Part shown: one piece after another, positions 21,998-26,698 of the stretch | Layout: every line of letters begins with the position of its first letter | Position numbering within the stretch: position 1 is the stretch's first letter | From: a virus | Direction: 5' to 3' (one strand) | Length of the DNA stretch: 41,445 nt | Virus record (IMG/VR): IMGVR_UViG_3300020021_000024 | Span: 1-41,445 of that record | Notes under the pieces: model-generated | The model's database searches: none | The model's input: the letters and a program-made list of their open reading frames with translations, nothing else | Told to the model about the DNA's origin: nothing | Translations under genes and position numbers: made by a program

Positions 21998-23771
21998 ACC
22001 AGATAATCAAACTAAAGCTAAAACGACCGTTGATCGTTATAATCAAAACAAACAAGATCGTTATAATTTCTTAATTCACTTTCAGGTTGTGGCCGAATAC
22101 TTCATGACCCGCAAGGCTGATTATACGGTGAATTTTAGCCCCGGTGTTTTTCTTAATCGGGATCTTTATGATTCGACGGGCCCCAAGGCAGGTAACGTGG
22201 CTGCCGGGGCTTTGTTGGGTATGTTGTGGCCCGAAGAGTCACAGAATTTTGAAATTGTTAAAGCCCGTAATATTCCCGATACTAAAGTTAACAGAGATTT
22301 CTTTAACGAAATTTCTTATCGTACCAATAAAGCCATGACGCATGTGGAGTGCGGGTTGTCTTTATGTTTGGGCGAGTATATGCGAGATGAAGTATTTTTT
22401 GGTACTTGTGGGGTGGGTGCTTTTGAACCAACAGATCCCAACGTATCAGACGACTGTAAGTTTCTGTTTCAGCCGTGGGACATCAAACGGATGGTAATTG
22501 ACGAGGGGCCAAATGGCTTTGTGAATCGGGTATTTTATGAACGTGAAGAGACAATCGAAAATGCCGCTTTAGAATTTGGAATTGAGAATTTATCCCGCAA
22601 ATCCCAGGATGCTTTTAATAATGGGGCCCAAGGTAAACTTACTAAAATTATTGTTCTTCATGCGATTGAACCGCGTTATACCAGGGACCCTGATGGATAT
22701 AGTGTTTTTGATTTACCGGTCAGTTCGACATATATTGAACTCGGGGAAATTCATTTAATACGGGAGTCAGGATACTCACGTATGCCGGTATTTGTTGGCC
22801 GTCTTATGAAAAACATAAGGGAGAAATATGGACGATCATTTGCCATGGACGCTCTACCGGATGTACTCGAACTTAACGCCATCCGAGAAATGGAAATTAT
22901 CGCTACTGAAAAGTTATTGGACCCTCCATTGGGGGTTTTGGATGATGGTCGTCTTGGTGCTAACACTATCGATACTTCCGCTGGTGCTATTACTGTCTTT
23001 AACATCAGTGGCCGTATCGGTAATCAACCGCCGGTATTTCCGTTAAATACTGTTGGGGACATGAAGCCAACAAAAGATCGTATTGAAGAATTAAAGCAAT
23101 CGGTGGCTGATCATTTTATGATTGACCGTTTGCTTGATTTAAATAACGAAACAGAGATGACAGCGTTTGAAGTAAACGAACGTCAGAAATTACGGGCTTA
23201 TGTTTTGAACTCTCTGTTCGCGCGCCAGATTAACGAAGTGTTTAGCCCGCTCATTCATTATTGTTTTAACAGTTTACTGGAACGCGGTTATCTTGGGGTT
23301 ATGCCTTTTAGCGAAGAGCACCAGCGTTCTGTTTTATTTGGTGAACCTGTTTTAGTGATCCCACCTGATATAGCTGCGGCAATGTTACGTGGTGAACAGG
23401 TTTATGACATTAAATATTTGACACCTGCCGCGAGAATGATGAAGGCCCAACTTGCGTCTGGCATCATAACAACGTGGAAGTTTCTTAATGATGTGGCCCA
23501 GGCGCAACCTGAAATTTATGATGTTGTTGATGAAGATATGTCGGCCAAATTAATTGCTGAATATTCCGGGGCACCAAGTGATATTATCCGGTCGGATGAA
23601 TTTACTCAACAGATTCGCAGTGCCCGTGCTAAACAACAGCAGCAAGATAAGCAGTTCCAACAGCAGATGGAAATGGCCAAAGCAGCGGGCCATCTAAAAG
23701 GTTTAGCGCCACAGCCGGGAGCACCAGGCGTTCAAAGTGGGTCTATGTCTCAACCGTTACAGGTTGGATAA
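21990..23771 (+). CDS. Portal (head-tail connector) protein
   Basis: 593 residues with the features of T7-type head-tail connectors. The helical N-terminus includes RPDNQTKAKTTVDRYNQNKQDRYNF, then the segment DSTGPKAGNVAAGALLGMLWPEES (the usual 'AA..lA..l...LfP' motif). Then come FFGTCGVGAFE, YGRSFAMDALPDVLELN(A)IREME (about 280-301) and a Gln-rich C-terminal tail (KQQQQDKQFQQQMEM). Twelve copies would form the ring through which DNA is packaged and to which the tail adaptor binds. Position between terminase and scaffold fits. Confidence 0.93.
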   Translation: MIRPDNQTKAKTTVDRYNQNKQDRYNFLIHFQVVAEYFMTRKADYTVNFSPGVFLNRDLYDSTGPKAGNVAAGALLGMLWPEESQNFEIVKARNIPDTKVNRDFFNEISYRTNKAMTHVECGLSLCLGEYMRDEVFFGTCGVGAFEPTDPNVSDDCKFLFQPWDIKRMVIDEGPNGFVNRVFYEREETIENAALEFGIENLSRKSQDAFNNGAQGKLTKIIVLHAIEPRYTRDPDGYSVFDLPVSSTYIELGEIHLIRESGYSRMPVFVGRLMKNIREKYGRSFAMDALPDVLELNAIREMEIIATEKLLDPPLGVLDDGRLGANTIDTSAGAITVFNISGRIGNQPPVFPLNTVGDMKPTKDRIEELKQSVADHFMIDRLLDLNNETEMTAFEVNERQKLRAYVLNSLFARQINEVFSPLIHYCFNSLLERGYLGVMPFSEEHQRSVLFGEPVLVIPPDIAAAMLRGEQVYDIKYLTPAARMMKAQLASGIITTWKFLNDVAQAQPEIYDVVDEDMSAKLIAEYSGAPSDIIRSDEFTQQIRSARAKQQQQDKQFQQQMEMAKAAGHLKGLAPQPGAPGVQSGSMSQPLQVG

Positions 23772-23774
23772 TTT

Positions 23775-24128
23775 ATGGCGAAACAAGAATCAGAAGAGAA
23801 TAAGCATGTTCCGACTCATACGCAAAGAAGCCCATCAGTTGATCGTGAGAAACAGACTAAAGAACTTGAACGACGGACCAAGCAGTTAAGATTTGATTTT
23901 GCGATTACGTTCGGAACACCTGAAGGTAAAAGAGTTCTTCAGTGGTTGATCAAAGAATCAGGTTATCAAAAAAGTCAAGTGGGTGGAAACCCTCAACTTG
24001 GTATGGACGTACTTCAAGGCACGTTATATAATTCCGCTCGATTATCAATATATTTAGAAATGCGTCAGTTAATCCCTGAAGAAACATTAAAAGGAGTAGA
24101 GTATGCAGACATTGATTCGTCTTTATAG
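23775..24128 (+). CDS. Bbp19-like small structural-module protein
   Basis: 117 residues: charged N-terminal third, then RFDFAITFGTPEGKRVLQWLIKESGY (residues 39-64), a match to the Bbp19 pattern (F...F.TPEGR.VL..L), and LQGTLYNSARLSIYLEMRQLI near the end. Bbp19-like genes stand between portal and scaffold/capsid genes in many podoviruses. The role is not established. It overlaps the scaffold gene by 26 bases and carries that gene's Shine-Dalgarno site (AAAGGAG). Confidence 0.78.
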   Translation: MAKQESEENKHVPTHTQRSPSVDREKQTKELERRTKQLRFDFAITFGTPEGKRVLQWLIKESGYQKSQVGGNPQLGMDVLQGTLYNSARLSIYLEMRQLIPEETLKGVEYADIDSSL

Positions 24129-25014
24129 AGATCCCGCGGTTGTTGGAACACCTGCGGCAGCGGTTATTCCCGAACAGTCACCAGTGCAAATACCGGATGC
24201 TGCGGAGCCCGTGGATCTAGCACCTAAGACTGTATCAACAACTCTGGATATTAATACTCCCGCACCAGCGAAAACAGAACCTTTCATTTTACCTGAAGCT
24301 TATAAGGATAAACCTTATCTTAAGGGGATTGATTCTCAAGAAAAACTTTTGAAAATGCTAGATGGTGCTCAAGAGTTGATCGGTAAGAAAGGTCCTACAG
24401 TTCCTAAAGATGACGCACCCCAGGCCGAGAAGGATGCGTATTACGAATCAATAGGTCGTCCAAAGACCCCAGGTGAATACACATTTCAGGGCGCTGATAA
24501 AACGGATGCTAAATTTTTACCTAAAGTTCAAGCGGCTATGCACGAAGCGGGTTTGACATCAAAACAAGCAAGTATTGTCTGGGATAAAGTGACGGTGGCT
24601 ATGAGTGAGTTGGCAACAGATAAAGGTCTGGCCGATGCTCAAGCAGATGTTGATTTTGATAAATTGGCAGCTAATACTTTCGGGGCAGATCGTGATAGAG
24701 TTTTAGCTCGCGGTAAAGAATTGGTTGATGCGAATATTTCTCCAGCGATGAAAGAAGCAGCTAAGAAATTGGATAATAATTCTTATGTTGTGTTGGCTGA
24801 TATTCTTCGTAACATTGATCGAAAATATATTTCACCAGATGGTGCGCCAGTTAAAGGCCCTACGGCTGTAGGTCTGACACCGGCGGATTTAAGTAATAAG
24901 GCCCGTAATTTAATGGTCGAGCAATCTAAATTTACTCCAATGTCACAGGAGTTTAATAATCTTCAGAAACAAATCGATGAGTGCTACGATACCATGCGTA
25001 GGGGTACCAGATAA
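24103..25014 (+). CDS. Capsid scaffold protein
   Basis: 303 residues, acidic and Ala/Pro-rich in the first 75 positions (many PAA, PVQIP). Then comes a helical core (YLKGIDSQEKLLKMLDGAQELIGKKG; KDAYYESIGRPKTPGEYTF), and a helical basic end (FNNLQKQIDECYDTMRRGTR). The segment 'YYE.IGRP.TPGEYTF' is common to phage scaffold proteins. Position directly before the capsid gene and the low-complexity, coil-rich make-up support the role of guiding capsid assembly. Confidence 0.83.
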   Translation: MQTLIRLYRDPAVVGTPAAAVIPEQSPVQIPDAAEPVDLAPKTVSTTLDINTPAPAKTEPFILPEAYKDKPYLKGIDSQEKLLKMLDGAQELIGKKGPTVPKDDAPQAEKDAYYESIGRPKTPGEYTFQGADKTDAKFLPKVQAAMHEAGLTSKQASIVWDKVTVAMSELATDKGLADAQADVDFDKLAANTFGADRDRVLARGKELVDANISPAMKEAAKKLDNNSYVVLADILRNIDRKYISPDGAPVKGPTAVGLTPADLSNKARNLMVEQSKFTPMSQEFNNLQKQIDECYDTMRRGTR

Positions 25015-25032
25015 AAATAGTTTTGAAAATGG

Positions 25033-25061
25033 TTGACATGAAGTTAATGTTAAAATAATAT
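25033..25061 (+). promoter_or_regulatory. Promoter of the capsid gene
   Basis: A perfect TTGACA (25033-25038), 17-base spacer and TAATAT (25056-25061, four of six). It lies in the 225-base gap between scaffold and capsid genes and would give the capsid gene an extra transcript with a roughly 170-base leader. Confidence 0.5.
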
Positions 25062-25067
25062 TAGATT

Positions 25068-25239
25068 GTCTGAAAGAGATGGGTAGCGCGAAAGCGTCCA
25101 TCTATGACGTAATAACGTCTAGTTAGGCTGCGATAGTGCTTAGATTGACTTCCGTTGTATGTAAGACGGGGATAGTTAAATCGACTGAGGTAAAATCTTA
25201 ATCGTTTAACTTTCTGTTTTAACATACAAGGAGTCAGTC
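25068..25239 (+). ncRNA. Structured leader of the major capsid gene
   Basis: A gene-free stretch with several hairpins. H1: GATGG...GCGC-GAAA-GCGT-CCATC (25078-25102), a 9-bp stem with a GTA bulge and GNRA loop. H2: GACGT-AATA-ACGTC (25106-25119). H3: TTCCGT/ACGGGG (25050s-25071) around ten bases. H4: AGTTAAA (25174-25180) with TTTAACT (25205-25211), enclosing a small TGAGGT/ATCTTA hairpin. It ends in AAGGAG before the capsid ATG. It may stabilise the mRNA or regulate translation. It does not match any riboswitch I can recall. Confidence 0.5.
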
Positions 25240-26127
25240 ATGGCTAATGAAATCGATTCAGCACTTATTACTCAATTCTCTGACATGGTGCACGTTCGTG
25301 CCCAACAGATGAAAAGTCGTTTACGTCAGTATTTTTCAATCCGCAAAATGTCGGGCGATGTTTGGGCTTATGACGGTTTAGGCATTGTCGAAGCAACTGA
25401 ACAGAATACCCGTATTGCGCCTGTCGTTTTTAATTCCATTGAACATAATCGTCGTAAAATCTCTCGTAGACGATTCGTCGTTACGTTGCCACTTGATAGT
25501 TCTGACGTCCGGGCGGTTTTGACTAACCCTCAAAACGATTATGCTGGTGCTTGTACCCGCGCTATTGAACGTGTTTATGATCGTGTTTGTATCGAATGTG
25601 CGTTTGCCGCTGTCTTAACAGGCCGCGATATGACCACATCTGTTACTGCTGCGACTGATGGTGTTATCACTATCGATGCAACAGCGGGGTTGACATATGA
25701 AAAACTGTTGGAAATTCGTCGTCGGTTTCATAACAATGAAGTCGGAAACGATATGCCTGAAAGGTTTGTGTTATTGTGCACCGCTGACGAAGAGGCAGCG
25801 ATGATGCAAGAAACGGCCTTGATTAATACCTTGTATACACAGCAATTTGTGGTGGATAAAGGCGAGATCACAAAGGCTGTCGGATTTGATATAATCAAGT
25901 ATGGCGCTTCTGTCACGAACCCAATGTTCGCGGCCAGCGGTACCCGTACATGTATCGCGGCGTCCGAACGCGGTATCGCAGTCGGTATGTCTTTGGACTT
26001 GTCTTTGAAGGTTCAAGAACGTACTGATTATGTGGAAACGACCCAGGTCCAAGCTATCATCCAGTTGGGGGCCGTGCGTACCGAAGGTGTCTTGGTTCAA
26101 AAAGTAAATACCACAGCTTTGTCATAA
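25240..26127 (+). CDS. Major capsid protein
   Basis: 295 residues with the outline of phage capsid proteins of the T7/podovirus 'Phage_capsid_2-like' kind: N-terminal helix (ALITQFSDMVHVRAQQMKSRLRQYF), RRFVVTLPLDSSDVRAVLTNPQNDYAGACTRAIERVYDRV (spine-helix region, 77-117), FVLLCTADEEAAMM (about 175-188) and a final beta strand part (VQAIIQLGAVRTEGVLVQKV). Its place after the scaffold, own promoter, long leader and strong AAGGAG site all suit the most abundant virion protein. Several hundred copies form the icosahedral shell. Confidence 0.9.
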   Translation: MANEIDSALITQFSDMVHVRAQQMKSRLRQYFSIRKMSGDVWAYDGLGIVEATEQNTRIAPVVFNSIEHNRRKISRRRFVVTLPLDSSDVRAVLTNPQNDYAGACTRAIERVYDRVCIECAFAAVLTGRDMTTSVTAATDGVITIDATAGLTYEKLLEIRRRFHNNEVGNDMPERFVLLCTADEEAAMMQETALINTLYTQQFVVDKGEITKAVGFDIIKYGASVTNPMFAASGTRTCIAASERGIAVGMSLDLSLKVQERTDYVETTQVQAIIQLGAVRTEGVLVQKVNTTALS

Positions 26128-26173: not shown

Positions 26174-26698
26174 ATGGCAATAGTTAATGCTTACATCGAT
26201 GCAAACATTGGAGCCACGAACCAGAAATTAGGTAACAACATTGGGTCTGGTAACGGTGGTATTGTTAAAAAGATGATTAATTGTTTTGTGGTCGGGTCGT
26301 CTGATGCTGCGGGTTCTATTTATCGTGTGTTTAAAGGTGTTAGTCCAGATGCAGTTATTCTGAATGTTCGTTTATATAATGATGCTTTAACTGGTGCTAC
26401 CAGTGTTAATTGCGGGTTATATGGTGTTTTGGATTTTGATAATATTGGTGCCATTGTTGGAACAGGTGATCAGTTTGCCAGTGCAGTTAATATCGCATCG
26501 GGAAACCCTGTTACTTCGACACCTTTAGTTTTCGATAAGGCTTTGTCGATTGCCAACCGTAACCAGCCTTTGTTTGTTGTGGCAGGGCATACAGTGATCA
26601 CTAAGCTTCCAGCTTATGATATCTGTTTGACAATGACCGCAATGACCACAGGGGCCACCGGTAACGTGTGTGTGATGATTGAATTTGTGCAGTTATAA
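26174..26698 (+). CDS. Decoration or minor capsid protein candidate
   Basis: 174 residues, no signal peptide, beta-rich and Gly/Asn/Val-rich (GNNIGSGNGGIVKKMINCFVVGSSDAAGSIYRVFKGVSPDAVILNVRLYND...), with alternating strand-like segments through to the end. The place between capsid and tail adaptor and the terminator after it (so high expression with the capsid gene) suggest a capsid-surface or stabilising protein. No specific family is recognised. Confidence 0.75.
   Translation: MAIVNAYIDANIGATNQKLGNNIGSGNGGIVKKMINCFVVGSSDAAGSIYRVFKGVSPDAVILNVRLYNDALTGATSVNCGLYGVLDFDNIGAIVGTGDQFASAVNIASGNPVTSTPLVFDKALSIANRNQPLFVVAGHTVITKLPAYDICLTMTAMTTGATGNVCVMIEFVQL

Follow-up and report, generated by a model that had tools for sequence, protein, structure and literature searches.

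The window analysed here comprises the whole of IMG/VR record IMGVR_UViG_3300020021_000024 (positions 1 to 41,445; 41,445 nt) and belongs to a podovirus encoding a family A DNA polymerase, an SNF2-type helicase, a VapE-type primase, a terminase and a portal, together with a scaffold-like protein, a Phage_capsid_2 major capsid protein (MCP) and T7-like tail tube proteins. The scaffold-like open reading frame lies at positions 24103-25014 and the MCP gene (PF19821 Phage_capsid_2, phrog_3437) at 25240-26127 on the plus strand, with a gap of 225 nt between them (25015-25239). A first-pass annotation had placed a structured 170-base leader in this gap, and both the predicted fold (z = -6.5) and covariation in relatives bear it out. 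A Shine-Dalgarno (SD) sequence, AAGGAG (25228-25233), lies 6 nt before the ATG of the MCP gene.

A sigma70-type promoter-like site (25033-25061, plus strand, score 10/12) is formed by TTGACA (25033-25038) and TAATAT (25056-25061) with a 17-nt spacer. The region contains 29 promoter-like sites compared with 32.2 in shuffles, i.e. no excess, and since shuffles hold as many such sites the promoter that had been annotated is weak when taken alone. It is rescued by comparative data, as the arrangement recurs in relatives: across 45 leaders the mean score of the best promoter pair is 8.6/12, compared with 7.2 after shuffling, and 22 of the 35 leaders scoring 8 or more have a -10 box whose end is 6-9 nt upstream of the first hairpin, P1. 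With that spacing in most relatives, the transcript should begin with the RNA element. The window's own -10 box ends 17 nt before P1, and its transcript probably starts near 25068, about 10 nt upstream of P1, which gives a leader of about 172 nt to the ATG, in line with the length first proposed.

The leader (25066-25245) has a predicted folding energy of -66.5 kcal/mol compared with -40.8 kcal/mol for dinucleotide shuffles (z = -6.5, 0/200). The reverse strand also folds strongly (z = -4.9), as expected of long inverted repeats, and energy alone therefore cannot fix strand or function. All parts of the fold lie on the plus strand. P1 (25078-25102) has the form GAUGG[GUAG]CGC-GAAA-GCG[U]CCAUC and carries the first copy (A) of a bulge motif; it is the GNRA-capped stem with a GTA bulge of the first-pass annotation, here resolved as a GAAA cap and a GTA(G) bulge, and its helices 1 and 2 are 96.5% and 100% paired over 40 distinct sequences. 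P2 (25103-25142) is a variable insert whose length differs widely among phages, and in the window it holds a hairpin GACGU/ACGUC (25106-25119) and a second hairpin near GGCUGCGAUAGUGCUU. P3 (25143-25182), GAU-U-GACU[U]CCGU...ACGG[GGAU]AGUU-AA-AUC, carries motif copy B, and its helices 4-6 are 89.8-97.3% paired with compensatory changes. It is followed flush by P4 (25183-25203), a weak A/U-rich hairpin with less support than P1 and P3; a hairpin opens at this position in about 22 of 33 leaders, with a mean z of about -1.1. Short forms of the leader have GAY, RUC, GAY and RUC segments around P1, P2 and P3 that admit two pairings, and there is good support also for the alternative in which the middle two (RUC, GAY) pair. 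In long forms (the window at 25103-25142, L036, L040, L048, L058 and L003) the second P2 hairpin has a recurring loop resembling GCGAUA(A), often with UUAGG or a variant next to it.

Relatives were gathered via the MCP and comprised about 80 IMG/VR contigs and several phage records; a DNA similarity search of phage records with the window gave nothing meaningful. Where the upstream gene is readable, the scaffold-MCP gap of these relatives is typically 120-290 nt, and their leaders have a recognisable pattern in common, though sequence identity is low. A covariance model, R1, was built from a MAFFT alignment of 11 short-form leaders, with the structure read by hand and the window left out, and was searched against both strands of 71 sources (513 kb) with E up to 1. 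It returned 44 hits, every one on the coding strand of the scaffold-MCP gap and none elsewhere in the 513 kb. One is the window itself (25074-25190), at a moderate 22 bits (E = 0.0017 against its own 41 kb), and the other 43 sites lie in the same gap. With filters off, seven more divergent leaders were the top hits at the expected place (E 0.005-1.1). Among 34 whole records, R1 occurs once per genome where found, bar one marginal extra hit, a weak second match on the minus strand of L263 (G016; 22569-22665, 16.6 bits, E = 0.026) that lies away from the MCP and is probably due to chance. Motif patterns independent of the MCP occur in at least 147 stretches of IMG/VR, at least 11 of them with R1 hits, and among the matches listed the R1-positive stretches are known contigs or have the hit directly before this MCP. 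No MCP relatives were found in GTDB genome contigs, and as R1 supports none of the seven matches to the leader motif pattern there, no cellular counterpart was found. A tRNA gene suspected next to the leader of L055 was looked for and not found.

The R1 alignment comprises 40 distinct sequences. Standard pairs fill 95.8% of its pair cells compared with 76.5% in shuffles, 18 of the 21 pairs have changes on both sides, there are 163 double-change cells compared with 41 shuffled, and pairing falls to 20-51% when partners are slid by 1-3 columns. This alignment leans towards the structure because it was fitted to it; a structure-blind MAFFT alignment (A3) gives the same covariation picture with fewer changes. 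Covariation in relatives, the lack of which had been named beforehand as speaking against the leader, is thus found. The MAFFT alignment of long forms was too poor for a second model, so the window's clade rests on R1 and on hand mapping, in which the position of the window's P3 was assigned manually using R1 and the four closest relatives. The comparisons identify a structured RNA with a conserved P1-P2-P3 fold at the 5' leader of the MCP gene.

The core of this RNA is one asymmetric bulge motif, GG[RUAS]C/G[Y]CC, present in both P1 and P3. The P1 copy has its 4-nt side on the 5' strand, and the P3 copy is a circular permutation in which the hairpin is closed at the other end and the 4-nt side is on the 3' strand. 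Of 40 rows, 38 for copy A and 37 for copy B combine R and Y as G-U or A-C; the remaining rows include one mixed G-C (L058). G-U and A-C are isosteric wobble pairs, and the permuted twin motif with its isosteric G-U/A-C exchange is an unusual RNA architecture. The four-base bulge is identical in the two copies in 27 of 40 leaders, compared with 8.6 when shuffled (maximum 18). The bulge type switches at least five times on the MCP tree, six switches being counted, and the copies switch together in 3-4 of 5 independent pairs with none opposed, a number at which a sign test cannot reach significance. The clearest case is L015 with L063, in which both bulges differ in type and the SD region is unchanged; portal, MCP and tail proteins of these phages are 90-96% identical (MCP 96%) and the scaffold 84%. 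Should P1 and P3 stack coaxially, the pair count would put the bulges about 11 bp apart (12 in the window), in the same orientation and at roughly one turn of an A-form helix.

The minimum-energy fold of the window does not contain P3. Instead, the 5' strand and loop of P3 pair with ACAUACAAGGAGUCAGUC and the SD is buried, in an alternative hairpin (25143-25239) that joins 25143-25162 to 25222-25239 and continues inwards with the P3 loop and 3' strand paired to 25205-25220; the predicted unpaired probability of the SD core in the free RNA is 0.00-0.05. The enclosing AGTTAAA/TTTAACT helix noted earlier (25174-25180 with 25205-25211) exists only within this SD-blocked fold and is outside the conserved consensus; there, AGTT (25174-25177) has GACT (25147-25150) as its partner inside P3. 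That this helix is an alternative fold, the permuted twin motif and the proposed P3/SD switch all go beyond the first-pass annotation. The SD is likewise predicted to pair with the P3 region in the four closest relatives, and across the family its most frequent predicted partner is the P3 strands. When P3 of each phage was paired with the SD region of each phage, the own combinations averaged -12.95 kcal/mol compared with -8.6 kcal/mol for permuted ones (z = -11, 0/20,000), and the matching persisted among 15 phages with less than 62% MCP identity (z = -6.3). No such excess appeared in ten other segment pairs, which involved among others P1, P2, the stretch following P3 and the start of the coding sequence; P1 and P3 gave no positive signal of complementarity to each other, and P3-SD complementarity is absent from L018, L020, L053, L006 and L079. 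The pairing usually covers the P3 loop and at least one strand of the stem, which rules out simultaneous formation of P3 with motif B; P3 and the SD-blocking pairing are, by comparative sequence and predicted folding, mutually exclusive, as in a translational switch.

These observations lead us to read the leader as a cis-acting element that forms the 5' end of the MCP mRNA and would act as a translational switch, to which we give a probability of about 0.6. With P3 formed, the SD would be free and translation ON; with the SD paired to the P3 strands, translation would be blocked (OFF). Folding energy would favour OFF in the free RNA, the window being predicted at about -48 kcal/mol with P3 enforced and about -67 kcal/mol in the minimum-energy fold. 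As the ON fold is not the minimum-energy one in the window, it must be stabilised or kinetic. ON could arise from a trans-acting factor gripping the twin bulges, which we prefer, or from kinetic trapping of P3, which would be made before the SD is transcribed. The conserved bulges would serve as a recognition or docking surface favouring ON.

The trapping route could also operate without any ligand, as a timer in which early P3 lets ribosomes load and later refolds into the SD-blocking hairpin, so that only new mRNA is translated; folding of the MS2 maturation-gene leader is a comparable kinetic timer. Transcription of P3 before the SD, its nesting within a more stable alternative and the family-wide exclusivity of P3 and SD all suit such a timer. 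However, a timer has no need of conserved twin bulges that switch together, which look like a surface for binding or tertiary contacts, and we consider this explanation rather improbable. Another possibility is that the 5' structure chiefly affects mRNA stability, P1 being a 5'-terminal stabiliser that protects the capsid mRNA, or that the SD-blocking hairpin is a processing signal cut by RNase III. The -10 box 6-9 nt before P1 in most relatives would put the 5' end within the stem, and the alternative hairpin of the window is long and nearly perfect. Yet about 10 nt ahead of P1 are unpaired in the window, and neither version explains the P3-SD matching or the permuted twin motif, so that stabilisation or processing appears unlikely. 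The earlier suggestion of a separate small RNA is so far not supported: no intrinsic terminator-like site was called in 25015-25239, and the SD region is part of the structure.

An antiterminator RNA acting on the host RNA polymerase was also considered, as the element places two bulged hairpins right after a promoter and ahead of a long late operon. In phage HK022, putL is located just downstream of PL and forms two stem-loops with bulges (PMC9378689). The resemblance is in layout only: the hallmark of putRNA is suppression of pausing and termination through the zinc-binding domain of RNA polymerase, whereas the SD of the capsid leader is matched to P3, which points to translation, and the element is found once per genome and only before the MCP gene. 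A search of the HK022 genome with R1, allowing E up to 1, found nothing. Motif-like matches in HK022 were rejected as homologues, being within coding sequence or attributable to chance. We regard antitermination as very improbable.

The preferred reading, a switch set by a factor that grips the bulges, leaves several candidates for the partner. The capsid gene context suggests that there is no metabolite ligand. A gene-content comparison with 13 other genomes found no early genes common to the leader-bearing phages, and what all ten leader-bearing genomes tested have is the portal, the MCP, a 174-aa gene, the tail tube genes and an internal virion protein, with scaffold and tail fibre matched in most of the ten. 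The common proteins belong to the structural module only, and none was recognised as RNA-binding. Since early genes differ among leader-bearing phages, a phage-encoded partner is likely to come from the structural (head/tail) module; otherwise the partner would be a host factor or the switch purely kinetic. The 174-aa gene (26174-26698) directly follows the MCP gene; it has no PHROGs match and was not detected in the ZP6, APEC or MD-2021a phages. The occurrence of both bulge types in nearly identical phages argues against a partner that strictly reads those bases, and their occurrence with 96% identical MCPs weighs against the MCP itself as such a reader. We tentatively offer, as a possibility with the odds against it, that a structural-module protein (the scaffold, the 174-aa neighbour or another) grips both bulges, which would lie on the same side of coaxially stacked P1 and P3 with about one turn of helix between them; the ribosome site of the capsid gene would thereby be freed and translation coupled to head assembly. 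Controlling how much capsid protein is made is a central part of phage assembly.

Among known systems, the T7 gene 10 leader likewise has its own promoter and a 5' hairpin directly before a podovirus capsid gene, with a U/A-rich stretch before the SD, all of which the element appears to share; to our knowledge, it has no conserved twin-bulge element or SD-blocking alternative fold. Translational riboswitches that sequester the SD similarly combine a 5' leader, a conserved receptor-like fold and an alternative pairing that hides the SD. The present leader has a conserved structured domain with covariation and, by sequence and predicted pairing only, a domain that excludes SD pairing, but its bulge core varies in type between close relatives where theirs is invariant. 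In phage Mu, structure in the mom mRNA blocks the initiation region, and binding of Com destabilises it and activates translation (PMC6483171). The capsid leader is also a phage mRNA with a structure-blocked initiation region, and differs in that its receptor, located upstream of the SD, is 100+ nt long and contains two permuted bulge motifs. It may work like a translational riboswitch or like Com/mom. As the first-pass annotation had remarked, it resembles no recognised riboswitch or ribozyme: scanning against Rfam 15 (4227 families) gave no match at the curated gathering cut-off and chance hits only at an E-value threshold. The best sub-threshold match, mir-759 (28.7 bits against a cut-off of 100), was dismissed as a generic long-hairpin match by chance. 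No such RNA element for tailed-phage capsid genes was found in the literature covered, which excludes most subscription journals. The leader has the appearance of a hitherto undescribed on/off switch governing capsid production. The phages that carry it have MCPs as little as about 50% identical and replication genes that are unrelated, and as a defined RNA that can fold in two alternative ways, occurs in natural double-switch variants and has look-alikes in cultured phages, it is directly testable.

Two distant MCP relatives, Escherichia phage vB_EcoM_APEC (L100) and Acinetobacter phage MD-2021a (L101), have only a 14-nt gap before the MCP gene and no leader, and are natural absence cases. 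R1 gave no significant score for the three sets of divergent leaders described here, except that it weakly recovered L046 from the first. This is a GC-rich variant (L021, L022, L024, L025 and L046) in which P1 reads GAGG[GCNC]..CUCGAAAGAG..[U]CCUC. The cultured Alteromonas phage ZP6 (L099) has TTGACA/TATAAT followed by two tandem hairpins before the MCP gene (about 2400-2480), GG[GUAG]CCAUAGG[GU]CC and AG[GUAG]CCACUAGG[U]CU, with both copies in the same, unpermuted orientation. In the pelagiphages (L016 and L093-L097), the last 110 nt before the MCP gene contain a P3-like hairpin (e.g. GAGAUGCCUACGCAGGUGGAUAACUUCUC). The P3-SD specificity test was uninformative for these six phages because their sequences are too similar. 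The elements in ZP6 and the pelagiphages may be related to the leader, and those of the pelagiphages are possibly a distant version of the same switch; the pelagiphage leaders also contain stretches complementary to the SD (GUCUCU with GGAGAC).
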